Source: Clostridia bacterium (GTDB taxonomy: Bacteria > Bacillota > Clostridia > Oscillospirales > Acutalibacteraceae). Taken from it: DNA of 62,999 nt. The position numbers and the translations under genes were made by a program. Shown here one piece after another: positions 19,478 through 45,151 of the stretch; positions within the stretch are counted from its first letter, which is position 1; every line of letters begins with the position of its first letter. The notes under the pieces were generated by a model. It saw only the letters and a program-made list of their open reading frames with translations, was not told the origin of the DNA and did not search any database. The DNA lies in contig JAFWYP010000009.1 in the NCBI GenBank assembly GCA_017517665.1, positions 1 to 62,999 of the forward strand. Direction: 5' to 3'.

Positions 19478-19711
19478 TTATGACCAGAAAACAACGATTT
19501 TTCCCATCTCTGCAGATGTGAACTTGCAATACATATCAAGAGGGAGTTCAATCTGGCAGGATTCTCCCATGCCGAATGTATCGTTGGCATTTGCGCCGCC
19601 GATAATACTCTGAATAAGCTCCATATCAGACTCTGTTGTTCCGCATGATACAGAACTGCCGCTTGGAGCGAATGTTGCGAGTTTGATAACGGGTTTAACG
19701 TAATTATTCAT
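19478..19711 (-). CDS. Peptide A: putative RiPP-like precursor with Y-x-K-P-x-I leader
   Basis: A 77-residue protein starting MNNYVKPVIKLATFAPSG. It has no signal peptide or membrane helix. The first 20 or so residues share the Y-[VI]-K-P-x-I pattern and a following Ser/Cys/Gly-rich junction (SSVSCGT) with the 79-residue peptide of locus B; the rest is unrelated. There are three Cys (about residues 23, 52 and 62) and a GGANAND stretch. A strong GGAGGG ribosome site lies 6 nt upstream. It is encoded 12 nt after a giant secreted protein, in an operon with radical SAM and HprK-like enzymes. I infer a modified peptide whose leader resembles the YxxPxL leader motif known for RRE-guided lasso peptides. 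Function is unproven. Confidence 0.7.
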   Translation of the reverse strand: MNNYVKPVIKLATFAPSGSSVSCGTTESDMELIQSIIGGANANDTFGMGESCQIELPLDMYCKFTSAEMGKIVVFWS

Positions 19712-19723
19712 TGCAATCCCTCC

Positions 19724-22700
19724 TTATATTTTTTTAGAAAACCAATCAATCGGTAATGAGTTAAGTGCATTTTTGAAGAACTCAATGATTCTTGCGAAAA
19801 ATGACTTGAGCATTTCGATGATTGCAGTGAATTTATCCTGCTCTGCCTTCTGTTCTGCCACAGATTCAAGAGTGGGAAGTGAACCTTCGGGGTCGATATT
19901 GGGATCATCTGCAGGAGCTTGAACGAATGTGTATGCTGTGGGTTTCACTTCGTGGGGGTCAACCTCTACAGCTTGAGTTGAGAGAATCTGGTCAAGCTCT
20001 GCAAGGCTTGCGCCGTTGAGGGGAACAAGCGATGCATTGGTAATCTTGATGTTATCAACTGCAAGAAGACCGCTGCCGCTGTTTGTTATAGTTACGGTGT
20101 ATGCGCCGTTATCTCCGTTTCCGAGATAATCCGTAATATCGTAATATGTTTCCGATGCGCTCTTAATATCAAATGATTTACTGTTTGCAGCACCGCTTGC
20201 GCCGACCGTTGCCTGGGGAGTACCGGGAGTACCGCTTGCTGCGCGAAGGCTTATCATTGCTTTGCGGTTGCTGTTGTCAGCCTTGAAGCGGAAAGCGATT
20301 GAGTGTCCGGGCTTGAGATATACTTCATACTTGGGACCGCCGCTTGTGAGATAGTTACCGAAGTTGATTTCACCTTCTGCGCCGGGTTCGATGTAAGCTG
20401 TAAGTGCATCGCCGCCCATACCGCCTGCGGTGATGGTTTCGATAACGCTGTAGTATGATGCGTTCTTTTCGCTTGCAATGTATTCATCGTTATAGGTATT
20501 GGGGTTATAGATACGGAAACCATCGATGTAGTTAACAAGCGAAGGAGTTGAGGTTGTTTCGTCTGCCTGAGTGTAAAGTGTTACGCCCTGAACGCCGAGA
20601 CCGCCGTTGAGAACTGAATCATCATCCATCCAGACAAGCTCAACTTCCTGACCGATGAGTTCATCCATGCCAACCTGAGCAAAGAGCTCGTCTGTTGAGA
20701 AGGTGTCTGCAACAGCTGAGGTTGCTTCGAGTTCTGTGCCTTCAACCGCATAGGTATCTACGCTCTGAGTCTTGACAAGACCGCCTGCAAAGCTGTAGTA
20801 AGCTGCGGTTGTTTCAACGGTATATGTGCCGTAAGCACCCTTGAACTGAACAACGGGAACCTGATAAATTGTGCGGTAGGTTGCGTCATTATAGAATGTG
20901 TCAACCATGAATACCTTGACAATCTTCATGCTTCCGTCAGTCTGATGCTGTTTAACCGTAACAGTCTGGATACCCGTGTTGCTGCCGCAGGCAGAGATAA
21001 GGTCGAAGCCTGTGCCTGTGAAGGTGAAGGACTGGGTATCGCTTCGGTTGCTTGAGGATGTAACGGTAACCTGCTTATGAGTGCCGAGCGAGAATGTTTC
21101 ATTGCTGTTATAGTAAGTTTTATCGCTGCCGAAAACGTCATCTTTGGTTGAAAGAGACTGATACTTGCCGTCAAATGAGCCGCTTTCAGTCCATTCTGTG
21201 AAGCTCTGTGTTCCGTCAAGAGTTTCCATCTTGTTTTCTTCGTAATAAACCGTTGAAGCGGGGACGATGTTAAGGCGGAACCAGTCATATGTGCCGTCAT
21301 CACGCTGGATGAGAACATAGCCCTTTGAGAGGTTTTCCGTAAGACCTGCCTGGCTGTTAAGGGTATAAACCATATCAAGGTTTTCGTTCACGAACTGAAT
21401 ACCCATGTTACCCGTGCTGAGGCTGGTCTTATAGGTTGACTGCTTCTGAAGGGTTGAGTCAACGGAGCAGAGAGTGCCGTTGATATCCGAGTCGTACATG
21501 GGAATATCGTAGTCCATGTAGTAGGTATACTCGGGGATTGTGAAGTGGTAGGTCGGGAATCTCTTAACGGGCTTATCGTTTGCGAGAGTATCACTCATAT
21601 AGCTTCTGTTCTGATAAAGAGCTGTTTTTGAAGTGTCGTTGATTGAGGTGTTGAGAAGCTCTTTATCATGCTTTGCTATAACGCCCGAAATAGTAACAAT
21701 CAGCTTTTCACCGTTGCCGAGGTTGGAGTTATATTCGGAAACGTTCTTTGCAGAATAGTCGAAGCCTTTAACTTCAATGTTGTTGTTTGCCTTGTCGAAG
21801 GTGGTTGTGAAGCCGGATGCGGTCTTAGGAGCTTCAAAATAGAGTCTGCCGATGCCGTCATACTTACTCTTTGCGGTCTGGTAGGTGATGGTTGCGTTGG
21901 TAAGGTCGAATGCATCTGTCAGATGCTCACGGAGGATAGCTTCCGTTGTGAGCGAAGCGATCGCGTTGTTTGAGTTTGCAACAACTTCGTTGAATACCTG
22001 GTTGGTGAAACTTTCAAGGTTGAAAGAACTTCCTATGGGAAGCTGCATATAATAGTTAACGCCTTCTTTGGTGTTGAACGGACCGGGGTCGGTCAAGCTC
22101 TTTGAACCTGTATATTCGGATGACAGGTATTTCATGAAATCATATTTGTTGAATTGTGCTTCATCATATACGGTGTCATCACCGACAAGAACAGAGTAAA
22201 CATATGCGCCGTTACGTTTAAGGTTGTAAGCACCGTTGCCGATAGCATCATTTGCAACTTGTTTTGCGGTGTCAACATTATAGTAACCGTTTTCGTCACC
22301 GCCCGGAGTACCGTCGGAAATAACGATAACAACTGCGCTTCGTGTTCCGTTAACATCATAGTCATAAGCACTGTTGTCAATTATTTTACTTGCCATTTCA
22401 ATGCCGTATGAGGGGAACGTATGACCCAGAGCCGTCAGATTGTTGACAATATTTCTGACAGTGCCGAATTGGCTGACTGAGAAAAATGCATTCTGATAGT
22501 TGGCGGTAGTGATGTTCGGATAACTTATTGCTGAACCGCTGTTTGTGTACAGATTTGTGCCTGTCCAAGTGTAACGGCTGTCAATTGAACCGTCAGAGCC
22601 GAAGGTAACAACAGCAATGCGGTGGTCAAAACCTGTTGCGTTTGCTTGAGCAGCAATTGTGTATGTAAGAGAGTCAACAGCGTTCTTGATACCGCTGATT

Positions 22701-25842: not shown

Positions 25843-26922
25843 TTATTGCCGTGATTTAAACTCTTCGCAGAGTTTTTCAAATTCATGCGCCTTTTTGCAG
25901 GCGTATGGCGGAACTTCGTCGCTCTTTCCTGTTTCTGCAATTGAAACAGCCGCACACATATCGCATTTTTTGCGGAGCGAACAGGCTGAGCATTCTTTGG
26001 AAAGAAAGATTTTTTTTCTTTCTTCACAAATCTTTTTCCATGCATCGCCGAAATCCGCTATCGGAATATTCGGTCCCGACATCATTCCGCACGGTGTCAT
26101 TTCGCCTTTCCAGGTTACCCAGAAGGTTGAAAGTCCAGCACGGCAATTAATCCGCTGACTGCATGAAATATCGTTTGCTTCGGGAACGGTTTCGGATTTG
26201 AGAAGAAGTCTTTTTATTTCTTCGTCTCCGAGCATATTCCTCTGCCAGTCAAGCTTTGCTTTTGCCGCATCCTCGGGAGAAAGTCTGAAAGTTTCACCGC
26301 AAGTCCGCACGGGGGAGAACATATAGCTCGCCGCTTTTATCGGAACATCAAGCTCTTTTGCAAAAGCTGTTACGGCAGAAATATCGTCAACATTGTCGGG
26401 GGTTATGCTGTAGTTGAGTTTGATGTTGATTCCTGCATCTTTCAGCTTTCGGATTGAATCCGTAACCTTCTGATAAGCCGATGCATTTCCGCAGAGCCTG
26501 CCGTAGGTTTCAGGTGATGCGCCGTAAAGCGTGATGCTGATTCTCTGAGGCGGATATTCCGTGAAAAGACGGATTTTATCTTCGTCAAGAAGTGTTGCGT
26601 TGGTGTTGACCGAAACAAGCAGACCGAGTTTTTTGCATTCCGTATAGATTTCATCGAAATCACGGCGGAGCAGAGGTTCGCCGCCTGTCAGCAAAAGCAT
26701 GAGCATTCCCGAATCTCTTGCTTTTGTTGCGAGGTCAATCCAGAATTTCGCATCTTTTTCTTCCGCAATTGCGGATTTATCGCAGCTGCGTTTATGAATA
26801 TAACACATTTTGCAGTCAAGAGTGCATCTCGGAGTGAGTTCAAACGAGCCTGCAAGAGGTATTTTGTTAATATCCGCTTTTGCGAAAAGAAAAGTCGTTA
26901 ATTGGTCGCAGGTGATATCCAT
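25843..26922 (-). CDS. Radical SAM/SPASM peptide-modifying enzyme (locus A)
   Basis: A 359-residue enzyme. The [4Fe-4S]-SAM motif CTLDCKMC (C-x3... form CxxxCxxC) lies at about residues 33-40, followed by LLTGGEPLLRRDF (SAM-binding GGE) near 78. The C-terminal SPASM domain is canonical: CRAGLSTFW, GEMTPC, then CSACSLRKKCDMC and a final Cys in YACKK, ligands for two auxiliary clusters. SPASM enzymes mostly modify ribosomal peptides. Its start overlaps the stop of the HprK-like gene by one base (TAATG type), so the two are translationally coupled. It is clearly paralogous to the locus B enzyme (shared FELTxRC, CYxH, CGMM segments). The substrate is inferred to be peptide A. Confidence 0.9.
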   Translation of the reverse strand: MDITCDQLTTFLFAKADINKIPLAGSFELTPRCTLDCKMCYIHKRSCDKSAIAEEKDAKFWIDLATKARDSGMLMLLLTGGEPLLRRDFDEIYTECKKLGLLVSVNTNATLLDEDKIRLFTEYPPQRISITLYGASPETYGRLCGNASAYQKVTDSIRKLKDAGINIKLNYSITPDNVDDISAVTAFAKELDVPIKAASYMFSPVRTCGETFRLSPEDAAKAKLDWQRNMLGDEEIKRLLLKSETVPEANDISCSQRINCRAGLSTFWVTWKGEMTPCGMMSGPNIPIADFGDAWKKICEERKKIFLSKECSACSLRKKCDMCAAVSIAETGKSDEVPPYACKKAHEFEKLCEEFKSRQ

Positions 26923-27770
26923 TAAATCACCCCTTCGCTTATGAGTGTTTTTTCAAGAGTGATTACGGCTTCTTCATCGGGGGTGCATCCGAAATGATAA
27001 ACGGGAACATCCGAAAGAAGCTCTATGATTAAATCGGTGCATTTCAGCCGTTCATAGGGGGCAACGAAATCAAGATAAATATTCCTCATAATGCCTTGCA
27101 GAGCCTCTGCACCGCTGAGACGCCTTATGCTGTTTGTCTTTGATTGGCTGAGAAGCACGATTGCACCGAGAGGGAGAGTTTTGTTATGGCATATACCGCT
27201 TGTTCCGCAGAACGGAACTCCGCAGGCATAAACGCCGTCTTGAACAAGAATTCCCGCTTTGTCACCATTAATAACATCGGCATTGCGGTGTTTTTCCCAG
27301 AGCGCAGCCTGAGTGCCTTTTCCCGTTCCGCAAGGTGCGGAAAAGAGAATTGCCTTTCCGTTGACCGAAATGAATGATGAATGAATGAAAAATGCGTTCT
27401 GAGGAAGCAGAAGCTGTGCGAGGGAAATTGAACTCCACATAAATCTGTTATCCGCCATGATCGGAAAACTTCTCGGGGTGAAAAATGTTTCACTGTGAGA
27501 GGTGTCGTCAGGGGTGTACTTTGTGAGCGCACCGTTAACCTTACCCATAGGAAAAGCTCTGTAAACCGTGTTGCCGTCAACAGACACAGTGAATTCGCCG
27601 ATCTGTGTTCCGCTCGAAATTTCGGGAAAATCATCACTGATTTTGCAACTTATATTTATATCTGCATTGCATGGCTCGGCTTCAAACTGTTCCCACATCG
27701 GATTATCACCCGGGAAACATTCCGCATCAATGCAAATCAGTTTTTTGCATATCCGATAAAACTTTTTCAT
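26922..27770 (-). CDS. HprK-like kinase (locus A)
   Basis: A 282-residue protein. The N-terminal 140 residues are unassigned; the C-terminal half has an HPr kinase/PEPCK-like P-loop SAPCGTGKGTQAALWEKH (about 148-165), then VINGDKAGILV and GVPFCGTSG. True HPr kinases have a different N-terminal domain and a GxSGIGKSE loop, so this belongs to the HprK-related group found beside peptide-maturation enzymes, including kinases of some lasso peptide clusters. It is the first gene of the locus A operon. The homologue in locus B keeps the same loops. It may phosphorylate the peptide or partner enzymes; this is inference. Confidence 0.82.
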   Translation of the reverse strand: MKKFYRICKKLICIDAECFPGDNPMWEQFEAEPCNADINISCKISDDFPEISSGTQIGEFTVSVDGNTVYRAFPMGKVNGALTKYTPDDTSHSETFFTPRSFPIMADNRFMWSSISLAQLLLPQNAFFIHSSFISVNGKAILFSAPCGTGKGTQAALWEKHRNADVINGDKAGILVQDGVYACGVPFCGTSGICHNKTLPLGAIVLLSQSKTNSIRRLSGAEALQGIMRNIYLDFVAPYERLKCTDLIIELLSDVPVYHFGCTPDEEAVITLEKTLISEGVI

Positions 27771-30219: not shown

Positions 30220-30369
30220 ATGTGTTTAGGTTTTGAAGTTAGTATGGTTGATGAAACCATAGAGATTTTAACCTCAGAAACTTCAGTGAAATATTTATTT
30301 GACTTCTGGAACACCTCGGCGATGACAAAGGAGATGATCGATTGGGTGCTAAACGACCTCGCAGGCTGA
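30220..30369 (+). CDS. Possible 49-aa ORF coupled to the integrase
   Basis: ATG at 30220 opens a 49-codon frame (MCLGFEVSMVDETIEILTSE...NDLAG) that overlaps the integrase start by 28 nt. The integrase ribosome site AAAGGAG lies inside it. Its own ribosome site is weak (AAAGGAAG about 25 nt upstream), and no family is recognised. It could be a coupling peptide or chance. Confidence 0.3.
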   Translation: MCLGFEVSMVDETIEILTSETSVKYLFDFWNTSAMTKEMIDWVLNDLAG

Positions 30370-31319: not shown

Positions 31320-31339
31320 GATTGTTTTGTAAACATATA

Positions 31340-31375
31340 TGTCATAACTTAATCAAAGATTTATGACACACGGAG
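31340..31375 (+). repeat. Island leader repeat, copy 3
   Basis: TGTCATAA...TTATGACA is a perfect 8-bp inverted repeat around CTTAATCAAAGATT, followed by CACGGAG. It precedes the 103-aa gene. Confidence 0.85.
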
Positions 31376-31395
31376 CTTAAGAAAGGAGAGATAAC

Positions 31396-31707: not shown

Positions 31708-31716
31708 TTTTACAAG

Positions 31717-31745
31717 TTGAAATTCAGACGGCAGTGCGGTATAAT
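31717..31745 (+). promoter_or_regulatory. Promoter of the serine recombinase gene
   Basis: TTGAAA and TATAAT separated by 17 bp. The -10 lies in the loop edge of an 11-bp hairpin GGCAGTGCGGT/ACCGTGCTGCC (31730-31772, two G-T pairs), which could regulate expression. Confidence 0.75.
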
Positions 31746-31797
31746 TTTGCTGTATGATAACCGTGCTGCCTTATGCTGAAGAAAAGGTGGCTTTATA

Positions 31798-33830: not shown

Positions 33831-33909
33831 CATATTACCTATGATATATATAAAAAATATTTGAAAAATCTTTAATGTTAATAATAAGCTAATTTTAGGG
33901 GGATTGTTT

Positions 33910-36900
33910 ATGAAGAATGCAAAAAAAGCGTTGGCTTTTATGCTCTGCATATTAATGATTGCATCGGTGATGTTCAATGAAGGATGGGTATCGCTTCTGC
34001 AATCAAACAAGGCATCGGCTATAGCAGGTCATGAACAGAATTATAACGATGCCAGAGTTGAACTTGATTTCAACAAGGGCTGGAAATTTGCTTTCAGCGA
34101 AGATTCGGCATCCTACCTGAAAGGTTTTGACGATTCCGGTTGGGAGAATGTTGATCTGCCTCACGATTTCAGTATGGAACAGGGCTTTTCCGCAACAGGC
34201 ACCGAAGCTGAAAGCGGAAACATTCCCGGCGGTACAGGCTGGTACAGAAAATGGTTCAATCTTTATGAATACTACACAGGCAACTGCATCACCATTGATT
34301 TTGACGGTGCATATCAGCATGCTTATGTTTATGTCAACGGTCAGTATGTCGGCGAAAATCATTACGGCTACAACAGCTTTTCTTTTGAGATTTCGGACTA
34401 TCTTATCTGCTCAAACACATCGCTCAATCTTATTGCGGTTAAGGTTGTCAATGAAATTCCCTCAAGCCGTTGGTATTCGGGTTCGGGTATCAACAGAGAC
34501 GTCAGACTCACAATTAAAGAACCCGTTCATGTTTCGCTCTACGGTCCTCAGGTAACAACTCCCGGCATTGCAAACGGTGACGGAACCGTAAATGCAGATA
34601 TAACAATGCATAACGATACGGCGATTTCCAAAAAAGTTATCGTTGAAGCTACGATTCTTGATGATAACCATAATGCAGTAAGCGATACTGTTGTGTCATC
34701 AACTGTTCTTGTTCCTGCAAATGCAGAGCAGACGGTTACTCTCAAACCCGAAGTTGATTCTCCCAGGCTCTGGAGCCCTGACAGTCCAAATCTCTACAAA
34801 CTCAGGACTGTTATAAGAAATGAAGACGGCGACCTCATCGATGAGTATCACACTACATTCGGCTACCGTTATATCGAATGGGATGAAGACACGGGATTTT
34901 CAATCAACGGTAAATTGACAAAGCTCAAGGGTGTCAGCCTTCACCACGACCAGGGTGCGCTCGGTGCTGTTCAGGAATATGATGCAATTTACCGTCAGCT
35001 TTCTATCCTCAAGGATATGGGCTGTAATGCAATCCGTACAACTCATAACACCGCATCAAGGGTTGTTATTGATATCTGTAACGAACTCGGACTGTTCGTT
35101 ATGGAAGAATTCTTTGACGGATGGGATGCTTCCAAAAACTATAATGACCACGACTTCAGCGAATATTTCAATCAGACAGTAAATGCAGATACCTGCCTTA
35201 TCGGTGCAAAGGGTCAGAAATGGTTTGAGTTTGTTGTTGAACAAACCGTTCTCCGTGACAGACACGATCCCTGTATCATTGCCTGGGGTGTCGGTAACGA
35301 ACTTTATAACATCACCGTAGAATCACCCGAATCAACCGTTAATTATGAAAACATAGTCAAGTCCATCGCTGATATCACGGATAGACTTGACCCCGATATA
35401 GTTCTTACTCAGGGTAACAATAAATCTCATGCAGACGCCACAATGCTGGTTGACCGCTATATGGATGTTATCGGCGGTAACTATAATCCCTATGCATGGA
35501 GTTTGCTTATGGGCGGAAACGATGATTTCAGGTCCTCAAAGCCTTTCGTTGCAACCGAAGCCGCTTCAGCAAATAACAGCCGAGGTGTTTACTACACAAT
35601 GGGTGCTGATGATGCCACTCTTCAGTGCACATCCTATGACACATACGCTGTCAGCTGGGGTAACGAAGCCGCGGAAGCCTGGTATTATGTTGCAACAAAC
35701 GACTTCTTCTCGGGCGAATTTGTCTGGACAGGTTTTGACTATATAGGTGAAACCACTCCCTGGATGAATTACAGCGGACCCAACGAGAATTTCGTTCCCA
35801 ACACATCGTATTTCGGAATTGTGGATACAGCAGGTTTTGCAAAGGATTCATATTATCTATATAGAAGCCTCTGGAATGAAGAAAGCACAACTCTTCACCT
35901 TGTTCCCGGTTCGTGGAATTCAGAAAATCTCTATGTTGAAAACGGATATGTAAACGTTGCGGTTTACAGCAACGCAAAGAAAATTGAGCTTCTCCTCAAC
36001 GGCAATGTTATCGCAACCGCAACTTCAGCAGTCAACACAACTCCCGCAGGTTATACATACAAAACATGGACCGAAAGCATAGTTGATTATTCAAATTGCA
36101 AAGTCGGCAGTTTTTACACAGGCAGCGGAGAAGATTTCTATCCTCAGTTCAACGTTAAATATGCGGCAGGCGAACTTTCCGTAAAAGCATATGACGAAAA
36201 CGGTGCAGAAATAACAGATACAGTCGGTTTGACAAAGTCCGTTTCAGGCACTGCAACACAGATTGCCGTAAAAACATGGCAGGATAAGAATACCTATGTT
36301 GCAGACGGTTCGGATTATATTTATGTTGAGTTTGAAGCTCAGGATGCCAACGGCAACTTCATGAATGACTATAACGGCACAATCAATTTTGATGTTGACG
36401 ATGATTCTGACAGATATGCAAAAATCATCGGTGTTGACAACGGTAATTCCGCAACAGCCGAAAAGTTCCAACAGGATTCCGTGATTGCATCCGATGCCGA
36501 GGCTGAAATACAGATGTTCAACGGCAGAGCGCTTGTAATTCTCAAAACAACGGAAGAAGAAGGCACAATCAATTTCACCGCTGTTGCAAATGACGGCACA
36601 TCGGAAATTATTGTTCCCGGTGTTACCGTTACATCCGTAAGTGAAACAGGTATTGAACTTACAGATGAATTTGAAGAAGTGGTTTTTCAGAACGGCAAAG
36701 AATACGAAGTCACTCTTTACGATGAATACGAAATGGTTAAGCACCATATAAACGAGCTTGAACCTCCGAAAGCAGAAGAAGGTGATTCAGGTTCGGGCGG
36801 AACAGGTTCGGGCGATGATTCAGGCAGTTCGGGTGATTCGGGTTCAGATGACACAACAGTTCCTGAAAAATATGAGATTTTCATTCCCGATTCAAGCGCA

Positions 36901-39900
36901 TCACAACATATTCCCAATGGCGAATATGTAATAAACAGCAACAAAGTTCTTATGTCAGGCAGAGTATATGACGGTTGGGCGGTTGAAGAAGACAGCACCA
37001 TTCAAAACGCTGAATGGGCAAGCGAAGACGTTGCTTATACGTATGAGAGCTTCGACACAACCGACAGCAACGTGTTTGTGTTTACTCATCAGGGCAATAA
37101 TAAATATTATATCCAGCATAAGAGAACGGGCCGATATCTTACCGTAAACAGTTATATGCTTGTGCTCGGCTCTGAACCTCATGCATTTGACGTTGAGCTT
37201 AATGCGAACGGTTCTTTCCATATTGATTCTAACGATACATATTACGTGAGTCAGGGTTGGGGTCCTTATGAATTCACAGCAGACGAAACCGCCAGCACAG
37301 ATCTCTGGCTGTATTCAAAACCGTCAGGTAAATCCGCTGCACCGCCCCCTTCTTCGGAGCTGAACAAGGTGGAACTTTACCTTGCCGATTCAACTGTTTC
37401 GGCAGGAAGCATCAAAGACGGCGATTATGTTTTGTTTAACAAGGATTGGGTGTTTGCAGATGAAGTTCTTTGGAATTATGTTGTATACGCAAACGATGAT
37501 ATTTACGAAATAACTCCTCCGACAGGTTATTCAAATCAGTATGAGGATTTCGAAACCATTGATTCCAATATCCTTACTTTTACTCATCAGGGCAACAACA
37601 CCTATTATATCAAGAATAAAAGCACGGGCCTGTATGTAAACATAGGTGAATGGAACCTCGTTTACGGTTCCAATCCTCAGGCTATAACGGTTACTCCCCG
37701 AAGCGACGGTTCAGTTCTTTTGTCCGACAATAATTTCTATGCTATTCACCTTACTTATACAACAGGTGACAAAATAGGTACACATCATTTTTATTCCGAA
37801 ACGCCAAACGATTGGTTTGTGCCTGAAAATAATGCAAATTCGATAATGTGGCTTTATTCCGTGACCGAATATTCATCCGAACGAGAGGATGACGATGAAG
37901 GCGGCAACGAAGGCGGTGACAGCGGCAGCACACCCACTCCTACACCCACTCCCACTATCAATCCCTATAAGAAAGCACTTTATGATATCCTTCACGAAGG
38001 TATCGGATATGATTACTCTGCTTACACAAGAACAAGCTACGAAAAATTGCTCGATGCTCTTGATGCAGGAGTTACGGTCTATAAAAAAGACAACGTAACA
38101 GATGCGGAACTTTCAGCTGCAACCGAAGCAATCCGTGCCGCAATTGATGCTCTTTCAATGGACATCAAGAAAATCAACGGTACTCTGTTCAAATACGGTT
38201 ATAACAACTCAACAGGTGCGGCCGACTATTCAGACGGCGGTCTGCTGATGAATGATATTGCCGTAAGACAGATGAAAACCGCTATTCTTGCAGATCAGAA
38301 CCTTGTGAGACAGATAAAGGATATTATCGGTTATGATACCGTTGAATGGGGAGGAGACCAGGCCGATAAAGTGCTTGATGAAGCAGTTGAAATATACGCA
38401 AAAATCTATACTCTGATGTTTACCGGTAAAGCTCAGAACGACATAGAAAATTATAACTCTCCGTCAAATTTTGAGCCTATCTCCATCAGCACGAAAATCC
38501 CCCTTACTCTCTGGAATGTATGGACCAAAAATAATACTCACGGTGCAATGGACCCTGACGATTGGGAAGGTAATCCGATACACGACGGTGCATCTGTTCA
38601 GGGTCTTGCAAGCGCAACGCTTGATAAGGGTGTTATAACCTCTCATTCAGCCTATAACCAGGAACTTCCCTATGCAAATGATGGTCCGGTTGCTGCTTAT
38701 GATATTGATACATACACCTATGGTTTTAATACGGGTACAGGTCTGTATAAGCAGGTTGAACTTGAACCTCTTTCGGGTATCAGCGTTCATTTCCCCGATT
38801 TGTTCACCCGTGAAAGCCTTGATGCAAGCGGTAACGTAACAGATGCAACATCGGGTCAGTATGCAAAGTATTACTGGGATACAGAGTTCCCAATGTTCAT
38901 CAGTACCGATGAATACGGTGTCAACACTTATCATTATGACAGCAAGGATACCAGATATCTTGTTCAGGCTTCATTTGATGATGAAAATCACACCGCAGAA
39001 ATGGAACTTAACGAAGTTGGCAAGTGGACTATAGTCGGTCCCAATAACGAAACCAAATCAGGTTTCTTCCCCTTCAACTATAAAGAGGGAACAACGGAAT
39101 ATAACTACGAAAACGCAGTTTACCATTACGGTTTTACATTCGAGCATAACTTCTATATTCCCAAGGGCGGTAAACATGTTAACGGTGAAGACGTTATATT
39201 CAACTTCTCGGGCGACGACGACGTTTATGTTTATATCGACGGCGTTCTTGTTCTTGATAACGGCGGTCTTCACGGTGCCCGTGCGGCAACCATCAACTTC
39301 ACAGACTGTTCAATCAGTTATCAGTATGCAATGGATGTTACCGACGGCGTGCTTAATGGCGACGAATTTGAAACAATATATTCATATAACAAATATATCG
39401 AAAACCCCGATGCAACAGGATATAACGCAGACACAATCGCCGCTATCAACAAGCTTCACGAAGTAATAACAGACGGTGAAGTTCATACTCTTAACTTCTT
39501 CTATCTTGAACGAGGCGCATCAGACTCCAACTGTCTGATATCCTTCAATCTCTCGGAAACATCGGAAGAAGTAAAGATTACCGACCAGAATCTTACTCTC
39601 GATTACGGTCTGCCCGTAGAATATGATATAACCTCAAATAATGAAATTTCGCAGGCGGCTCTTGATAACGGTGTTGAGATTGAATATCTCGGTATCTGCG
39701 CCGTAAACGAAGATTATACCCCGACATATACTTTCGAACTGCCTCAAATCATCATTCCGTTTGAAGACGGTAAAACATACACTGTTGACGGAATGAAATA
39801 CGGCACATGCACGGTTGATAACAAGGGTAATGTTTCTTATTCGCTTGAATCAACGAACATGAAAGAGTCGGAAAACTTCTTTGTGGTTGCAAAAATCACG

Positions 39901-42012
39901 GGTGACCCGACTTATGCGGAAGAGGTTGTATACTATCAGATAGAAAAAACAACCTTCATTCCTGCAACAGCGATTTATTATGAGGATACTTTTGATACCA
40001 TAACCTACACAAACGGCAAAGTTCCTGCAAATTATGATAATAACACAAATCAGTACGGTATCTGGAAAACCGAAGGTATGCAGTCAACCGATCTCAAGCA
40101 GGCGGCTGATATTACCGACAGTGAAGCAAATCCCTACGGATACGAAACAAACTATTTGTCATTCGCAGAATACAGCGGTAATTCAACCCATTATGTCGAT
40201 GTAAGCACAAAGAACAATCCCAATAAGAAGTACAGCGGCGGAACGGGTGCGGCATGGCCGACTGTTGAATTCGATTTTACAGGCACGGGATTTGACCTCA
40301 TAAGCGTTACGGATAACACCACGGGTGCATTCAGCGTTATGATTAAGGATGAAAACGGTGCGTCAGTGCTGAATACCGTTGTTGATACCTTCTACGGATA
40401 CAACTACGGCAGAATCTATTCAGATGCCAACGGCAAGCCTTCGCTTGACAGCACTCTTACACCCATGTATAAGTCCGAAAACGGACTCTGCACATCCGAT
40501 GCAAGATTCTATGACGAAAACGGTGCAATCACCTCAACTGCGCATTATTACGGTGCAAACGGCGAAGTTACCGAAACCGTTCATTATTATGATGAAAACG
40601 GCATGAGCACCGATGTTCCCCATTATTATGAAAACGGTAAAGTGGTTGAAACAGAAACCGATAATCCGTCATATGCATATTCATATGCATTTGCCTATGG
40701 CTGGGTTGTTGCCACCGATGATTCAAAAGATACGCTTTATCAGATTCCCGTTATCAAGATAACGGACCTTGAATACGGTCATTACGATGTTGTGATAACA
40801 CCCACATTCACAAGCGCATTCCGTCATTCATCCACAGCTGAAGACGGCACAAGCTATTACAGAGTATATCTTGATGCCATAAAGATATACTCGCCTGCAG
40901 GCGAAAACGACGATATCAAAGACCGCGATGTAAAGAAAGCGTATGCAACGGATGATGAGCAATATCCGAGCTATCTTGAACTCAAGGATATGCTTATCGG
41001 TGCCGATTCGCTGGCAGAAGAGAAGGATACACAGGGTATTATCTTTATCGACGGTATTGCCGCACTTAACAATGACATTGCAACTTATAAAAACGCAGGT
41101 CCCAACAATGAGCTGTATCTTGCAAAAGATCAGGCTGTTGCGTTTGAAATCTGGGCAACATCCGTTCCTACCGATATTCAGCTCGGAACAAAGCTCGCCT
41201 GCGGCAATCCCAAGCTTACCGTTTCATATGCATCCAAAACAACGGATACCGTAATAGAAACGGCAACGGATATTTATTATTCTCTGAATACCATGCTGCC
41301 GAATGACGCAAAGCTCACCTGGAAACAGGTTGAAGGCAGCGACGGAAACAATTATTACACCACGGGAACCGTTGTTATTCAGAACACGGGCGACGAAGAC
41401 AGCGTACTTTCGCTCACGAATCTTAAGTGGACATTCTCGCAGAACGGCGGAAAGGGATATTTCCGTATTCCCACACCGATTGATAACGAAGTTCTCATGG
41501 TTGCTTCAACAAATGATACACCGATTCGTGCTTATTCTCTTATGAGTATGAGAACTGCTGCTCTCGGACTCGAAATGATTCAGGCACCCAGAGTTATCAG
41601 GGATAAAAACGGTGACGGATTTGTTGTTGTAAATCTCAAATCATCTCTTGATGTTGATTCCTTTGTTGTTACGGAGCGAAAAGGTATCCGTTCGATTCCG
41701 AAGGAAGTTGAATCTGTTGCTTCTCATATTGACGGAAATGATTACATTGAATGGGTTCTGTTGATTCCTGCAGATGAAATCGGCACTTTCACCTATGAAG
41801 TTACAGGCGCTTATGCAAACGGATATGTAGATGAATCAAAAACGGTAACCTTTACCATAACCGTAACTCCGCTTTCGGATGATGAAGCGGATGACGGAAC
41901 AAACAACAAAAAACCCGAACCTGCTCCCATTATCGATCTTGTAACTGAGTGGTTCGCAAAATTCTTTGAATTTATCAGATCCGTATTCGCATCGATCGGA
42001 ATTATATTTTAA
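33910..42012 (+). CDS. Giant secreted protein B (about 2700 aa): GH2-type hydrolase, fibro-slime domain, C-terminal modules
   Basis: ATG at 33910 follows AGGGGGA. After a signal peptide, residues about 40-800 are a glycoside hydrolase family 2 enzyme: sugar-binding domain (FNKGWKFAF, VDLPHDFS), Ig domain and TIM barrel with acid/base Glu in WGVGNELYN (about 460) and a likely nucleophile Glu in PFVATEAAS (about 550). A Gly/Ser/Asp linker (about 958) leads to two tandem 150-residue repeats sharing FTHQGNN-YYI, a Thr-Pro linker, and a FIVAR-like helical domain (about 1350-1418). A fibro-slime/PA14-like domain follows (FNFSGDDDVYVYIDGVLVLDNGG, about 1775), then FTGTGFDLIS (2122), HYYDENG repeats, NELYLAKDQAVAFEI (2399) and a tail WFAKFFEFIRSVF. 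Probably a beta-galactosidase-like surface enzyme. Confidence 0.88.
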   Translation: MKNAKKALAFMLCILMIASVMFNEGWVSLLQSNKASAIAGHEQNYNDARVELDFNKGWKFAFSEDSASYLKGFDDSGWENVDLPHDFSMEQGFSATGTEAESGNIPGGTGWYRKWFNLYEYYTGNCITIDFDGAYQHAYVYVNGQYVGENHYGYNSFSFEISDYLICSNTSLNLIAVKVVNEIPSSRWYSGSGINRDVRLTIKEPVHVSLYGPQVTTPGIANGDGTVNADITMHNDTAISKKVIVEATILDDNHNAVSDTVVSSTVLVPANAEQTVTLKPEVDSPRLWSPDSPNLYKLRTVIRNEDGDLIDEYHTTFGYRYIEWDEDTGFSINGKLTKLKGVSLHHDQGALGAVQEYDAIYRQLSILKDMGCNAIRTTHNTASRVVIDICNELGLFVMEEFFDGWDASKNYNDHDFSEYFNQTVNADTCLIGAKGQKWFEFVVEQTVLRDRHDPCIIAWGVGNELYNITVESPESTVNYENIVKSIADITDRLDPDIVLTQGNNKSHADATMLVDRYMDVIGGNYNPYAWSLLMGGNDDFRSSKPFVATEAASANNSRGVYYTMGADDATLQCTSYDTYAVSWGNEAAEAWYYVATNDFFSGEFVWTGFDYIGETTPWMNYSGPNENFVPNTSYFGIVDTAGFAKDSYYLYRSLWNEESTTLHLVPGSWNSENLYVENGYVNVAVYSNAKKIELLLNGNVIATATSAVNTTPAGYTYKTWTESIVDYSNCKVGSFYTGSGEDFYPQFNVKYAAGELSVKAYDENGAEITDTVGLTKSVSGTATQIAVKTWQDKNTYVADGSDYIYVEFEAQDANGNFMNDYNGTINFDVDDDSDRYAKIIGVDNGNSATAEKFQQDSVIASDAEAEIQMFNGRALVILKTTEEEGTINFTAVANDGTSEIIVPGVTVTSVSETGIELTDEFEEVVFQNGKEYEVTLYDEYEMVKHHINELEPPKAEEGDSGSGGTGSGDDSGSSGDSGSDDTTVPEKYEIFIPDSSASQHIPNGEYVINSNKVLMSGRVYDGWAVEEDSTIQNAEWASEDVAYTYESFDTTDSNVFVFTHQGNNKYYIQHKRTGRYLTVNSYMLVLGSEPHAFDVELNANGSFHIDSNDTYYVSQGWGPYEFTADETASTDLWLYSKPSGKSAAPPPSSELNKVELYLADSTVSAGSIKDGDYVLFNKDWVFADEVLWNYVVYANDDIYEITPPTGYSNQYEDFETIDSNILTFTHQGNNTYYIKNKSTGLYVNIGEWNLVYGSNPQAITVTPRSDGSVLLSDNNFYAIHLTYTTGDKIGTHHFYSETPNDWFVPENNANSIMWLYSVTEYSSEREDDDEGGNEGGDSGSTPTPTPTPTINPYKKALYDILHEGIGYDYSAYTRTSYEKLLDALDAGVTVYKKDNVTDAELSAATEAIRAAIDALSMDIKKINGTLFKYGYNNSTGAADYSDGGLLMNDIAVRQMKTAILADQNLVRQIKDIIGYDTVEWGGDQADKVLDEAVEIYAKIYTLMFTGKAQNDIENYNSPSNFEPISISTKIPLTLWNVWTKNNTHGAMDPDDWEGNPIHDGASVQGLASATLDKGVITSHSAYNQELPYANDGPVAAYDIDTYTYGFNTGTGLYKQVELEPLSGISVHFPDLFTRESLDASGNVTDATSGQYAKYYWDTEFPMFISTDEYGVNTYHYDSKDTRYLVQASFDDENHTAEMELNEVGKWTIVGPNNETKSGFFPFNYKEGTTEYNYENAVYHYGFTFEHNFYIPKGGKHVNGEDVIFNFSGDDDVYVYIDGVLVLDNGGLHGARAATINFTDCSISYQYAMDVTDGVLNGDEFETIYSYNKYIENPDATGYNADTIAAINKLHEVITDGEVHTLNFFYLERGASDSNCLISFNLSETSEEVKITDQNLTLDYGLPVEYDITSNNEISQAALDNGVEIEYLGICAVNEDYTPTYTFELPQIIIPFEDGKTYTVDGMKYGTCTVDNKGNVSYSLESTNMKESENFFVVAKITGDPTYAEEVVYYQIEKTTFIPATAIYYEDTFDTITYTNGKVPANYDNNTNQYGIWKTEGMQSTDLKQAADITDSEANPYGYETNYLSFAEYSGNSTHYVDVSTKNNPNKKYSGGTGAAWPTVEFDFTGTGFDLISVTDNTTGAFSVMIKDENGASVLNTVVDTFYGYNYGRIYSDANGKPSLDSTLTPMYKSENGLCTSDARFYDENGAITSTAHYYGANGEVTETVHYYDENGMSTDVPHYYENGKVVETETDNPSYAYSYAFAYGWVVATDDSKDTLYQIPVIKITDLEYGHYDVVITPTFTSAFRHSSTAEDGTSYYRVYLDAIKIYSPAGENDDIKDRDVKKAYATDDEQYPSYLELKDMLIGADSLAEEKDTQGIIFIDGIAALNNDIATYKNAGPNNELYLAKDQAVAFEIWATSVPTDIQLGTKLACGNPKLTVSYASKTTDTVIETATDIYYSLNTMLPNDAKLTWKQVEGSDGNNYYTTGTVVIQNTGDEDSVLSLTNLKWTFSQNGGKGYFRIPTPIDNEVLMVASTNDTPIRAYSLMSMRTAALGLEMIQAPRVIRDKNGDGFVVVNLKSSLDVDSFVVTERKGIRSIPKEVESVASHIDGNDYIEWVLLIPADEIGTFTYEVTGAYANGYVDESKTVTFTITVTPLSDDEADDGTNNKKPEPAPIIDLVTEWFAKFFEFIRSVFASIGIIF

Positions 42013-42038: not shown

Positions 42039-42278
42039 TTGAAAAAGTCCTATATTAAACCCGCAATCGCTTTTGAAAGCCTCGCTATTACAGCAAATGT
42101 ATCTTCCGGATGCTATCTTCTCGGCACAAACAGTGCTGAATATGAATGTCCTGTTATTGACGAAGAATCAGGCTGGACAATATTCTCCAACACAGCGCAA
42201 TGTATGTTTCTTCCGGGTCCTAATGACACGATATGCTACGATATACCTCTTGCCAACAGCAATGTATTTTCATCGTAA
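42039..42278 (+). CDS. Peptide B: putative RiPP-like precursor with Y-x-K-P-x-I leader
   Basis: A 79-residue protein with a TTG start after AAGGAGG. It begins LKKSYIKPAIAFESLAITAN and then VSSGC, matching peptide A in the Y-[VI]-K-P-x-I segment and the Ser/Cys/Gly junction; the remaining 50 residues are different and carry three more Cys (four in total) plus several Gly-Pro and Asn residues. There is no signal peptide. It lies 26 nt downstream of giant B and upstream of a kinase, a radical SAM/SPASM enzyme and a PqqD-like protein. The leader fits binding by the PqqD-like protein. It is inferred to be the substrate of this enzyme set; the modification is unknown. Confidence 0.72.
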   Translation: MKKSYIKPAIAFESLAITANVSSGCYLLGTNSAEYECPVIDEESGWTIFSNTAQCMFLPGPNDTICYDIPLANSNVFSS

Positions 42279-42289
42279 CTAAATTAATA

Positions 42290-42327
42290 AAGAAACGGAG
42301 TTCATCTTATGACGGACTCCGTTTCTT
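42290..42327 (+). terminator. Strong hairpin between peptide B and the maturation genes
   Basis: A perfect 12-bp stem AAGAAACGGAGT/ACTCCGTTTCTT with a 14-nt loop. It has no downstream T run beyond TTTCTT, so partial termination or mRNA processing is likely. Such hairpins after precursor genes often let the precursor outnumber its enzymes. Confidence 0.65.
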
Positions 42328-42342: not shown

Positions 42343-42996
42343 ATGAAGAAAAGATTTGTTGCAATCGGTCTGGCAGTTCTTGTTGTAATTTCAGTTGTTG
42401 CCGTTATCTTGGTAAAGAAAAATTCTGATTCAAAGAATCCGCAGACAACAACCGTTGCATTTCAGAATGCTCAGCTTGGTGTCACCGTTGACGGCTGGCT
42501 GAAAATCATTGAAATTGATGAATATTACGGAAGACTTGCAGTTGTTGCCGAAAATGTTTCGGACAGCGATGTTGAATATGCTTTGCTTACCGTGAAAACA
42601 AAAAGCGGAGAACTGACATTCAATGTGTCTGCACTGTTAAGAGGCACAAAGGCTGTTCTTCTGTGCAACGAAGATGTCGGAAGCAATCCCGGCGAAGTTT
42701 ATACAGCATGGCAGACAAAAGATAAGATTGATTTTGTGAAAAAGCCTGTTACGAACGATGATAAACTTGAGATAAGCATTCTTGACGGTTCTGTATCGGT
42801 GAAAAATATTTCAGGCAAGGATATAGAATCCGATATATATATTTATTATAATGATAAAAAAGACGATTTGGTTAACGGCAGTGTGACATATAAATTCCGT
42901 GTGGATGGAATCAAAGCTGATTCGCAGACCTATGTCAAAGCACCGGAACTTAATGAAAACAACTGCATGATTATATTTACTGATTATGATAATTAA
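42343..42996 (+). CDS. Membrane-anchored protein of locus B, unknown function
   Basis: A 217-residue protein with one N-terminal hydrophobic segment (FVAIGLAVLVVISVVAVILV, residues 5-24) and no lipobox cysteine, so a signal anchor. The outer part looks like two beta-sandwich units (VDGWLKIIEIDEYYGRLAVVAENVS split at 55-80, and ISILDGSVSVKNISGKDI at 145-162), similar in style to FxLYD/DUF4352-type stalks, but I do not recognise a family. It overlaps the HprK-like gene by 11 nt, so it is part of the maturation operon. It has no counterpart in locus A. It may help in export or display of the peptide. Confidence 0.7.
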   Translation: MKKRFVAIGLAVLVVISVVAVILVKKNSDSKNPQTTTVAFQNAQLGVTVDGWLKIIEIDEYYGRLAVVAENVSDSDVEYALLTVKTKSGELTFNVSALLRGTKAVLLCNEDVGSNPGEVYTAWQTKDKIDFVKKPVTNDDKLEISILDGSVSVKNISGKDIESDIYIYYNDKKDDLVNGSVTYKFRVDGIKADSQTYVKAPELNENNCMIIFTDYDN

Positions 42997-43846
42997 GAAG
43001 TATAAAATCGGTAATTTTACCGTGGAAGTGAATTCACAGGCAACTTACGGGAATTCAGGGCCGTTCACCCCGTTTTCGTATGACGGTGATCAGACCGATT
43101 ATAAAGTTACCGTTGAATTTTCATCCGTTCTTCCGCAGACTGCCCAAAATCCGTATTGTACATTTACGGACAGGGTATGCGAGTATGAAAACGGCATCTG
43201 GCGTTGCTTTTATAAATCCCACGACAACGATGATGAATATTATGCCTGCCGTATTGTTGACGGTAAAAATACAGATATCATTATTGATGAAAGATACCGT
43301 GATATGCTTCGTGCCGATGTTATATTCACCCTTGTCGGAATTGAGGAAATCGCTGTCGGAAGCAACGGCTGTGTGCTTCATTCATCATTTATAGAAAAAG
43401 ACGGCGGTGCAATTCTTTTCACGGGTCCTTGTGACATCGGAAAGTCAACGCAGGCAAATCTCTGGAGAGAGTATGCCGATGCCGTTGTTGTAAACGGCGA
43501 CAAAACATTTATTTTTGAAAAAGACGGTGTCTTTTATGCATCGGGACTGCCTTTTTCGGGTTCGTCAAGAGACTGCCTGAACAGGGTTTTGCCCCTCAGA
43601 GCCGTGATAAGTCTTGAGCAGGCTGAGTCAAACAATGCGCAGAGACTTGTTTCGGATGAAGCGTTTTTCAGATTATATAAAAACTGTTACTCCGTGCATT
43701 GTTCACGGGAATTTACGGGTATGCTGTTTGATTTCGTGCAGAAGTTAAGCTGCAGTGTGCCTGTATACGACTATGCCTGCCTTGCCGACGAAAGCGCAGT
43801 CAGGTATCTGGAGAGAAAATTATGTCCGATTTTGCAGAGCCTTTGA
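42986..43846 (+). CDS. HprK-like kinase (locus B)
   Basis: A 286-residue paralogue of the locus A kinase. The N-terminal half is a divergent beta-rich region; the P-loop TGPCDIGKSTQANLWREY is at about 147-164, followed by VVNGDKTFIFEKDGVFYASGLPFSGSS, in which the NGDK and G-x-PF-x-G-S loops match locus A. The first ATG overlaps the upstream gene and the last 25 nt overlap the radical SAM gene, so translation of all three is coupled. It is not the carbon-catabolite HPr kinase, because the N-terminal domain and the HPr-specific loop are absent. Peptide or Ser phosphorylation is the best guess from kinases in some lasso clusters. Confidence 0.82.
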   Translation: MIIKKYKIGNFTVEVNSQATYGNSGPFTPFSYDGDQTDYKVTVEFSSVLPQTAQNPYCTFTDRVCEYENGIWRCFYKSHDNDDEYYACRIVDGKNTDIIIDERYRDMLRADVIFTLVGIEEIAVGSNGCVLHSSFIEKDGGAILFTGPCDIGKSTQANLWREYADAVVVNGDKTFIFEKDGVFYASGLPFSGSSRDCLNRVLPLRAVISLEQAESNNAQRLVSDEAFFRLYKNCYSVHCSREFTGMLFDFVQKLSCSVPVYDYACLADESAVRYLERKLCPILQSL

Positions 43847-44895
43847 TGGTAAAATATCTTCACGATAAAGGCGCTCGTGAAGGAATACCCGTTTCGGGTA
43901 CTTTTGAGCTGACACAGCGTTGCAATTTCAATTGCGGAATGTGTTATGTTCACGATTGCAAACAGAAAACAGACCCTCTGTCTGCCGATGACTGGCTGAA
44001 TCTTGCTCAGCAGGCCAAGGATGCAGGCACTGTTTTTCTGCTGCTTACAGGCGGCGAGCCTCTGTTCCGTGAAGATTTTGAGAAAATTTACACAGCTCTT
44101 GCAAAAATGGGATTTCTTATTTCGATAAACACAAACGGCAGTCTGATTGAAAGATATGCAAAACTCTTCGATGAGTTGCCTCCGACCCGCATCAATGTTT
44201 CGCTCTACGGCGCAGATAATGATGCCTACGGAAGACTGTGCCGTAACGATGCGTTCGATAAAGTTATGAGTTCGGTAAAACAGATGAAAGAACTCGGAAT
44301 ATCCATGCGTTTCAACACGATTTTTACACCCGAAAATATATCGGAATATAAAAAAATTGCAGATATTTCAAAGGAAATGAGCATTCCTCTGAAACCCACA
44401 ACCTACACCTATCCCTCAGTCAGAATCGGAAGCGGAAACAAGGATTCGCGTTTTATGCCCGAGGAAGCTGCCGAATATATTTCGCTTATCGACGAGTACA
44501 GACTTGATAAGGATTTTTATCTTGGAAGAGCGAAGAAAATGCTTCTCCTCCCGAAAGGACCGACAGAGAACAAAGTCCGTTGCAGGGCAGGTAAATCGTC
44601 TTATTGGATAACTGCCGACGGAATAATGCGTCCTTGCGGAATGATGCCCGAACCCGATGCCAGACCGTTTGAAGACGGATTCGAAAAAGCATGGCAGGAT
44701 ATAAAAGCGGCAACGGAAGAGATAAGAACCCCCGAAGAATGTCTCACCTGCAAATATTCGGGAATATGCAATGTGTGTGCGGCTATGTGCAAGGCTGAAA
44801 CGGGCGATTTCGGCAAAACGCCGCAGTATATCTGCCGTATGACAAAGCATCTTTTTACTCTTGCAGAAAGGAGTGTTTGTGATAATGACAATTAA
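43822..44895 (+). CDS. Radical SAM/SPASM peptide-modifying enzyme (locus B)
   Basis: A 357-residue enzyme with the SAM-cluster motif CNFNCGMC (about 32-39), LLTGGEPLFREDF near 76, and a SPASM domain: CRAGKSSYW, GIMRPC, CLTCKYSGICNVC and a final Cys in YICRM. These provide ligands for three iron-sulfur clusters. Sequence and motif spacing are close to the locus A enzyme, so the two are paralogues. The adjacent PqqD-like gene, whose start overlaps this gene's end, is the usual peptide-binding partner of such enzymes (as PqqD for PqqE). The substrate is inferred to be peptide B. Confidence 0.92.
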   Translation: MSDFAEPLMVKYLHDKGAREGIPVSGTFELTQRCNFNCGMCYVHDCKQKTDPLSADDWLNLAQQAKDAGTVFLLLTGGEPLFREDFEKIYTALAKMGFLISINTNGSLIERYAKLFDELPPTRINVSLYGADNDAYGRLCRNDAFDKVMSSVKQMKELGISMRFNTIFTPENISEYKKIADISKEMSIPLKPTTYTYPSVRIGSGNKDSRFMPEEAAEYISLIDEYRLDKDFYLGRAKKMLLLPKGPTENKVRCRAGKSSYWITADGIMRPCGMMPEPDARPFEDGFEKAWQDIKAATEEIRTPEECLTCKYSGICNVCAAMCKAETGDFGKTPQYICRMTKHLFTLAERSVCDNDN

Positions 44896-45151
44896 AAAAG
44901 ATATGATTCTTCGCAAAGTGGGCGTTGATATAATCCTTGTTCCCGTCGGAAATGCACTCAAAGATCATAACGGATTCTTTATGCTCACGGAATCTGCTTG
45001 CTTTCTCTGGAATAATCTCACCGAATGCAACTCCGTTGAAGAACTTGCGAAGAAACTTTTTGATGAATACGATGTCACCGAAGAACAGGCACTCGCAGAT
45101 ACAAAAGAGTTTACAGATAAGCTTGTTGAGCTGGAAATAATTGATTTGTAA
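44885..45151 (+). CDS. PqqD-like RiPP recognition element protein
   Basis: An 88-residue stand-alone PqqD-family protein: MILRKVGVDIILVPVGNA, then ESACFLWNNLTE, then EELAKKLFDEYDVTEEQALADTKEFTDKLVELEIID. This is the winged-helix RRE fold that binds leader peptides and hands them to a modifying enzyme. I use the ATG at 44885, which overlaps the end of the radical SAM gene and follows AAAGGAG; a TTG 24 nt earlier is less likely. No second copy lies in locus A, so this one may serve both peptides. Confidence 0.9.
   Translation: MTIKKDMILRKVGVDIILVPVGNALKDHNGFFMLTESACFLWNNLTECNSVEELAKKLFDEYDVTEEQALADTKEFTDKLVELEIIDL

Follow-up and report, generated by a model that had tools for sequence, protein, structure and literature searches.

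Two related loci, A and B, in a stretch of Clostridia DNA (the window: contig C9:1-62999, 62,999 nucleotides, from a parent genome of 2.77 Mb in 68 contigs that is 88.7% complete) each encode a giant exported protein with a small peptide directly behind it, a radical S-adenosylmethionine (SAM)/SPASM enzyme and an HprK-like kinase. On balance, we favor the reading that each locus makes a ribosomally synthesized and post-translationally modified peptide (RiPP), which would be cross-linked at Cys, phosphorylated at its last Ser and used as the dedicated partner of the giant surface protein. The gene order, a C-terminal module of the giants, the leader motif, the conserved Cys and terminal Ser of the peptides, the co-occurrence of these parts and the presence of giant–peptide pairs away from the enzymes were all read from sequence. 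That gut bacteria repeatedly encode a modifiable-looking peptide right behind a giant surface protein suggests that the partners work together.

The two loci comprise the following features.
26922..27770, minus strand: HprK-like kinase A, 282 aa, with the His, P-loop GKGT and NGD
25843..26922, minus strand: radical SAM/SPASM enzyme A, 359 aa
19724..25771, minus strand: giant A, 2015 aa, with a signal-peptide-like N-terminus and an amphipathic-looking C-terminal tail
20045..21283, minus strand: C-terminal module of giant A (profile match E 6.8e-76; this stretch is one of the profile's 19 rows)
19478..19711, minus strand: peptide A, a 77-aa precursor, 12-nt gap behind giant A
19430..19463, minus strand: terminator-like hairpin directly behind peptide A, 14 pairs and a T-rich tail
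33904..42012, plus strand: giant B, 2702 aa from TTG; the likely start is the in-frame ATG at 33910
39946..41427, plus strand: C-terminal module of giant B, at about residues 2015-2510 (profile match E 2.6e-125; the profile's first row)
42039..42278, plus strand: peptide B, a 79-aa precursor with a TTG start behind AAGGAGG, 26-nt gap behind giant B
42290..42327, plus strand: strong hairpin behind peptide B, lacking a T tract and not scored as a terminator
42343..42996, plus strand: membrane-anchored protein of locus B, 217 aa
42986..43846, plus strand: HprK-like kinase B, 286 aa, with His132, GKST and NGD172
43822..44895, plus strand: radical SAM/SPASM enzyme B, 357 aa, with CX3CX2C and the SPASM Cys pattern
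44861..45151, plus strand: PqqD-like RiPP recognition element (RRE) protein (PF05402, E 7e-14)

Re-reading of the window placed these genes at the positions given in a preliminary description of this DNA, or only a few bases away. As it had stated, each of the two loci encodes a giant exported protein, followed 12 or 26 nt later by a peptide of 77 or 79 aa, together with a radical SAM/SPASM enzyme and an HprK-like kinase, and locus B adds the PqqD-like protein and the membrane protein. The kinase, radical SAM enzyme, giant and peptide of locus A are all encoded in one direction, and locus B has the order giant, peptide, hairpin, membrane protein, kinase, radical SAM enzyme, PqqD-like protein. 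Its count of two loci did not stand for the genome: a third, of type B, was found on contig C44, with genes for peptide, membrane protein, HprK, radical SAM and PqqD. At this third locus, a chimeric 266-aa open reading frame (ORF; L203:387-1187) with an actin-like (ALP_N) N-terminus and an apparent giant C-terminal tail occupies the giant's place; it looks like a rearrangement or an assembly artefact.

For comparison, loci were gathered by radical SAM similarity. They gave 76 distinct peptide matches, 65 of them evaluable (at least 1000 nt upstream). A module-bearing ORF lies directly upstream of 53 of the 65, within 40 nt for 49. In the control, an ORF of at least 1000 aa lies directly upstream for 21 of 1239 genes, and a chance neighborhood was set aside on this comparison. 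The remaining 12 peptides are varied: a module giant lies earlier in the same operon for three (L053, L112, L142) and elsewhere in the locus for two (L074, L109), one comes after a 2575-aa ORF (L086), two are preceded by short or cut ORFs with giant-like tails (L034, L192), and four have no giant (L123, L133, L178, L198). Counted from the giants, 68 distinct module giants have at least 400 nt downstream, and a peptide sits directly behind 49. Among the other 19, the peptide is 183-195 nt further on for four (L085, L094, L101, L128), later in the operon for L112, L141 and L142 and elsewhere in the locus for L074 and L109, and L075 is the front piece of a split giant; the last nine are taken up below.

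The 92 close radical SAM loci include HprK in 88, PqqD in 75, the peptide in 66, the membrane protein in 65 and the module in 55, a gene set that bears out the earlier proposal of a RiPP-like system. Neither peptide nor module was present within the examined stretch in 25 of the 92. If peptide and enzymes belong together, the genomes of these empty loci should carry the pair elsewhere. Eighteen of them were searched whole, with the peptide found in 16 (E up to 0.01) and the module in 17 (E up to 1e-6); genus searches found the peptide in six of the seven others (G003, G014, G016, G017, G019 and G020, not G026). In stretches taken from the 18 genomes, a module ORF lies directly in front of 18 of 33 evaluable peptides. 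These pairs are spread over 12 of the 18 genomes, and 12 of the 18 pairs have no radical SAM or HprK gene in the stretch examined (some stretches reach contig ends). The other 15 peptides have no module ORF in front; several follow a PqqD or radical SAM gene instead. One genome, G071, has four giant–peptide pairs (L204-L207); for two of the four, radical SAM or HprK genes lie within the stretch. Peptides locally without radical SAM and HprK (e.g. L176, L204, L205, L209) are members of giant–peptide pairs, with the enzymes elsewhere in the genome. Because some pairs stand away from the enzymes, the giant–peptide pair is itself conserved. The earlier suggestion that the peptide is tied to the large surface protein thus gains support from both counts, 53 of 65 overall and 18 of 33 in genomes with an empty radical SAM locus.

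Peptide A has the leader motif YVKPVI, Cys at 23, 52 and 62 and the C-terminus ...VVFWS; peptide B has YIKPAI, four Cys and ...NVFSS. In 29 aligned diverse type-B peptides, Y5, P8, C25, F49, C66, Y67 and the Ser column S79 are invariant, the peptide of L103 having one extra residue after the conserved Ser. Type A peptides have YCKF and three or four Cys, but likewise terminate in [VIA]FxS. After removal of a low-complexity false match (L123 15621) and a 16-residue fragment (L076), the leader motif [YW]xxPx[LVIAFY] was present in 74 of 75 peptides and, with the truncated L035 peptide left out of the last-residue count, a C-terminal Ser in 73 of 75; both counts are biased, because the profile seeds had been picked for Y.[KSE]P and for the terminal Ser. 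A less biased count comes from peptides located by position behind module giants, 47 of 49 of which have a final Ser; the two other ends are those of L035 (deletion) and L103. The baseline is a final Ser in 128 of 2014 ORFs of at least 150 aa. In a second batch, 35 of 36 peptides finish in Ser and L231 in Asn, as found with a profile (A6) in which 28 of 29 rows have a final Ser.

Folding is stronger in the 75 nt behind the peptides (median -24.9, n=73) than in the 75 nt behind HprK genes (-15.2, n=88; p 2e-16), a control that is mostly coding and not intergenic. From this stronger folding 3' of the peptides, we infer that giant and peptide form one expression unit, ending or attenuated behind the peptide, with the type B enzyme genes coming after it. 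In the relative G022, peptide B is shortened by a deletion that reaches into the membrane protein gene (L035:8955-9092), and represents a broken gene or an assembly error.

Giants A and B are related at their C-terminal ends through the common module. Giant A has a VWA-like motif, FVLDTSGT, at about residue 870, without a Pfam match. Giant B has a signal-peptide-like N-terminus and glycoside hydrolase family 2 domains at residues 56-577, followed by sub-threshold ricin-lectin- and FIVAR-like stretches, the module and an amphipathic-looking tail. When 45 giants were compared all against all, the C-terminal part was most strongly in common, and a profile of the last 950 residues, built from 12 giants that are themselves among the 45, matched 40. 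The five missed form one subgroup (L085, L086, L094, L101, L128), four of which were recovered with profile A4 on whole proteins. In all 53 module ORFs preceding peptides, the module ends no more than 450 residues from the C-terminus (median 158). The N-terminal domains vary: a survey of 15 of the 45 giants found GH2 (window B), GH20, GH88, VWA, ricin lectin, PA14, Big_2, List_Bact repeats and endonuclease I, with no domain family in three of the 15 (window A, L111, L114). The module gave nothing above cut-off against Pfam or PDB.

Rough patterns class the tails of 53 giants as amphipathic helix-like in 37, hydrophobic plus basic in 2 and other in 14. The 37 differ from LPXTG-like and SLH anchors of known surface proteins; by eye, L111, L114 and L204 have hydrophobic-plus-basic tails and L103 an SLH-like stretch. 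As a separate observation, the tail FFxKLIxFFKKLFG recurs on large exported proteins (L177:2-7162, L195, L196, L062:8724-11405 and many giants), also on large proteins without a peptide behind them, and looks like an undescribed surface-anchoring or sorting tail of these Clostridia. In G015, contig C43 carries three tandem module giants (L179, L180). A GC-rich inverted repeat comes after each of the three, none has a peptide behind it, and this genome has one close radical SAM gene.

Among the best 80 of more than 534 relatives of the window's radical SAM enzymes, the hosts are Clostridia, Oscillospiraceae, Lachnospiraceae and related metagenome-assembled genomes (MAGs), many labelled ruminant gut, and a few are isolates, such as Pseudoflavonifractor sp. 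An44 and Lachnoclostridium sp. An76, with the module giant and the peptide in the same operon but not side by side. With the close class of radical SAM enzymes set, after the scores were seen, at E below 1e-140, and peptides detected by profiles A2 or A3, 45 genus members contained the close enzyme in 20, the module in 19 and the peptide in 19. Enzyme and module occur together in 18 genomes, the enzyme only in 2, the module only in 1 and neither in 24 (Fisher 2e-9); for enzyme and peptide the figures are 19, 1, 0 and 25 (Fisher 8e-12). At a looser cut of E 1e-60 (27 genomes), the tables are 18/9/1/17 for the module and 19/8/0/18 for the peptide (p 4e-5 and 1e-6). Peptides outnumber close radical SAM genes in G015 (3 to 1) and in G019 and G030 (2 to 1).

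Among 157 genomes sampled evenly from the order, four have the module and four the radical SAM enzyme, with three in common (G000, G049, G166; Fisher 2.5e-5). G166 belongs to another family than the window, and its locus L242 encodes a 1298-aa module giant, an 86-aa peptide with a final Ser, HprK and a radical SAM enzyme, then a 1576-aa ORF and PqqD.

CX3CX2C is present in 94 of 95 distinct close radical SAM enzymes and the SPASM Cys pattern in all 95. The window's radical SAM enzymes reached no curated NCBIfam equivalog: they score at best 101 and 103 bits where the cut-offs are 325 and 500. Among solved structures SkfB (6efn, E 7e-25) is the best relative; MoaA, another radical SAM entry and PqqE come next. 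In 17 aligned kinases, one His, GK, T and NGD are invariant, and His-GK[SG]T-GD (His, P-loop Lys, GD) is found in 81 of 88 with a pattern that was widened after inspection of the misses (26/100 and 56/88 with the stricter first pattern). The kinase profile matched HPr kinase 1jb1 weakly (E 0.28), over just the conserved stretch. Kinase B alone gave only weak TopBP1 matches in the PDB, which were taken as chance.

From these features we infer the following course, which covers the chemical steps, the export route, anchoring, docking and the sharing of enzymes. The giant would be exported through its signal peptide and kept at the cell surface by its C-terminal tail. The PqqD-like RRE may hold the precursor by its YxKPx[IVF] leader while the radical SAM/SPASM enzyme modifies the Cys-rich core, probably with cross-links at Cys. 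The HprK-like kinase would then phosphorylate the last residue, Ser; this step is proposed because PadeK modifies the C-terminal Ser of a lasso precursor. The mature peptide could leave through the MsbA-type exporter and act with the giant at the surface, most likely docked as a cap, tether or ligand on the module next to the anchor. The module is the likely meeting place because pairs occur away from the enzymes and it is the most constant part of the giants. Several giant–peptide pairs may be served by one enzyme set. A bolder version appears to us unlikely: the RiPP would be a functional component of the giant, mounted stably or covalently on the module (through phospho-Ser or a radical-SAM cross-link), and the cells would bear RiPP-decorated surface fibres that exchange their outer domains freely but keep the peptide–module joint, with one enzyme set arming several fibres.

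Parts of this set are familiar from two phosphorylated RiPP systems. According to a review (PMC9266682), PadeK phosphorylates the hydroxyl of the C-terminal Ser in a lasso precursor, and this Ser is extremely conserved wherever the kinase gene accompanies the precursor. According to PMC13381572, discrete lasso RREs recognize the leader motif [YW]xxPx[LVIAFY] that was counted above, kinase and RRE are common to paeninodin-like clusters and the linear polyphosphorylated peptides (LPPs, 2026), and the LPP core consists of an RRE, an HprK-like kinase and an MsbA-like exporter, with clusters lying within capsule loci. The paeninodin-type lasso peptides (PadeK, ThcoK, PsmK) share with the present loci the HprK-like kinase, the C-terminal Ser of the precursor, a discrete RRE and the [YW]xxPx motif; unlike them, the present loci have a radical SAM/SPASM enzyme and a giant surface protein as partner. 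The lasso B2 transglutaminase-like leader peptidase (PF13471) gave no match in the window's genome (88.7% complete), and a plain lasso cluster was set aside on this result. A scan of the proteins of the loci and their flanks, though not of the whole genome, showed no Asn-synthetase-like lasso cyclase.

The likeness to LPPs, as described in PMC13381572, extends to the RRE, the HprK-like kinase, the MsbA-like exporter (below NCBIfam cut-offs), the capsule or exopolysaccharide neighborhood and the YxxPx leader. The LPP phosphate is, in that text, on core Ser3, whereas the conserved Ser of the present peptides is the last residue; a radical SAM enzyme and a giant partner are further differences. 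The scan of genes in loci A and B showed neither a SipW-like signal peptidase I nor the LPP NTP transferase. More distant loci (L057-L062, L198, L199, L202, L244) combine PqqD, radical SAM, HprK and an ABC exporter, often beside exopolysaccharide genes. NTP_transf_5 was found in three of three of the distant loci scanned, as was a small S24/S26-like protein (below cut-off). The precursors of the LPP-like loci vary in their last residue, which is Ser in L198 and L244 but not in L057-L060. By their gene content, loci such as L057, L060, L062 and L244 resemble clusters of LPP type that include a radical SAM enzyme.

The enzyme types also resemble those of the SynChlorMet cassette of NCBIfam (ScmC, which is HprK-like, ScmD, PqqD-related, and the radical SAM proteins ScmE and ScmF), for which we know of no giant partner. 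HprK B matches ScmC (E 5e-7, 29 bits, cut-off 125) and the radical SAM enzymes match ScmE. Scores for ScmC, ScmD and ScmE were 15-29, 15 and 60-77 bits against curated cut-offs of 125, 100 and 400, and membership was set aside on these values. With the sacti- and ranthipeptide maturases (SkfB and relatives) the SPASM architecture is in common; to our knowledge, an HprK-like kinase, a terminal Ser and a giant partner are not part of those systems.

Searches of the open-licence literature found nothing joining radical SAM, HPr kinase and PqqD in a RiPP, and for HprK-like proteins with RiPPs only the LPP paper. Those on rumen RiPPs, on surface proteins and exopolysaccharide and on SPASM/PqqD/kinase sets, covering listings and abstract starts, returned no such system. 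The available portions of PMC9266682 and PMC13381572 and this literature describe no RRE/HprK set with a radical SAM enzyme and C-terminal-Ser peptides, nor a giant-protein partner. The system is a new combination of known parts, and we class it as a variant of the phosphorylated RiPP systems, since RRE, HprK-like kinase and MsbA-like exporter are the paeninodin-like/LPP core, rather than as a lasso or LPP member. The earlier claim that no described class has this combination stands for the open-licence listings searched, with the amendment that this core was already known.

Several findings weigh against the interpretation of the peptide as partner of the giant. The loci, having been collected by radical SAM similarity, are not independent; the co-occurrence statistics ignore descent and come from incomplete MAGs, and the post hoc definition of the close class and the seed bias of the profile counts add to this. 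Besides the 25 empty loci, there are peptides without an adjoining giant (e.g. L178, L217, L218, L229, L234), and for 9 of the 68 module giants no peptide was found (eight in G001, G015 and G030, the ninth in G026). The preliminary description named as its counter-case peptides without enzyme neighbors and without a giant. Among the 45 genus members no genome has the peptide without the enzymes: each of the 19 with the peptide is one of the 20 that have a close radical SAM enzyme. Locally, peptides without a giant (e.g. L178, L217, L218) and pairs without enzymes in the stretch (e.g. L176) do exist. In the order sample, the peptide profile passes E 1e-6 in just 2 of 157 genomes (G000, G049), G207 has only the module, at the end of a contig, and G173 has a radical SAM enzyme alone, a more distant one in the LPP-like locus L244. 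The precursors of the more distant HprK/radical SAM loci L057-L060 have no final Ser, and the kinase alignment did not reveal the second Asp of the His-Lys-Asp-Asp motif known from publications. Of 34 complete giants, 27 fit a simple signal-peptide pattern, the exporter lies within the stretch in only 13 of 92 loci, and no leader peptidase was seen among the proteins scanned.

Some of these points would suit a free RiPP (bacteriocin or signal), with the giant as a coexpressed adhesin or glycan-binding or glycan-degrading protein that makes no contact with it and the membrane protein as its immunity factor. Sacti- and ranthipeptides typically combine a Cys-rich core with a radical SAM/SPASM enzyme, as is the case here; SkfB as best solved relative, the membrane-anchored protein in 65 of 92 loci and the peptides without a giant point the same way. 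Nevertheless, we hold this alternative to be doubtful. Shared regulation alone would not be expected to keep the module near the anchor while the N-termini differ, or to leave giant–peptide pairs intact away from the enzymes, and a core as strongly kept as that of the 29 type-B peptides, with Cys25, Phe49, Cys66, Tyr67 and the Ser column invariant, also argues against it.

The exopolysaccharide surroundings raise another reading, to which we give a small chance: a RiPP of an exopolysaccharide locus like the LPPs, its phosphorylated end serving as a glycan handle or being polyphosphorylated, and the giant a matrix protein. CpsB/Wzz-type genes follow peptide A, such genes occur within the stretch in 19 of 92 loci, and LPP clusters are placed in capsule loci with RRE, HprK-like kinase and MsbA-like exporter in PMC13381572. 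Yet 73 of 92 loci have no exopolysaccharide gene in the stretch examined, and the scanned genes of loci A and B include no LPP-type signal peptidase or NTP transferase. A further reading, in which the giant is the substrate of the enzymes (at its module or tail, for instance) and the small protein is a carrier, chaperone or decoy, would account for the genome co-occurrence of module, peptide and radical SAM enzyme. It is very improbable, as it is the peptide that bears a leader motif of RRE type and a terminal Ser of the kind used by the kinases (sites were examined on peptides only) and a long chain in an export route would be a poor substrate for cytoplasmic enzymes.

RiPPs are familiar mainly as secreted small molecules. 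If the partnership of peptide and giant is real, a modified peptide would belong to the cell surface as a structural or recognition element, with outer domains exchanged and the module kept. It would also bring together radical SAM modification and C-terminal Ser phosphorylation, with peptide B, kinase, radical SAM enzyme and RRE encoded in one operon, and add an unclassified surface module in gut Clostridia.

The window contains further features around the two loci.
14314..19048, minus strand: exopolysaccharide-type genes (CpsB/CapC, Ig-like protein, Wzz/ATPase proteins) downstream of peptide A on the same strand
27953..29689, plus strand: ABC exporter, MsbA-type by its best NCBIfam matches, all below cut-offs
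30342..33471, plus strand: inserted stretch, whole, absent between exporter and giant B in G022
30342-31319, plus strand: ORF without a Pfam family in the inserted stretch, then a small ORF
31798-33471, plus strand: serine recombinase in the inserted stretch
45197-47161, minus strand: exported glycoside hydrolase family 98 enzyme, adjoining locus B convergently
48478-49212: 245-aa NTP_transferase beyond locus B, beside a GHMP-kinase gene

The exporter had been described as lying beside locus A. It does adjoin A, but runs toward B. In the relative G022, exporter, giant B and the truncated peptide B follow one another on one strand with locus A divergent from them, and in the window a recombinase-bearing stretch (~30.3-33.5 kb) sits between exporter and giant B. 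Because the exporter is directly upstream of giant B in G022 and the inserted stretch separates the two in the window, the exporter most likely belongs to locus B, to judge from gene order; its assignment to locus A was set aside on the same grounds. In another relative, G011, ORFs resembling by eye those of window 30342-33471 lie downstream of the exporter (L042:16992-20000), and the same kind of element may be drawn to the exporter site in both.

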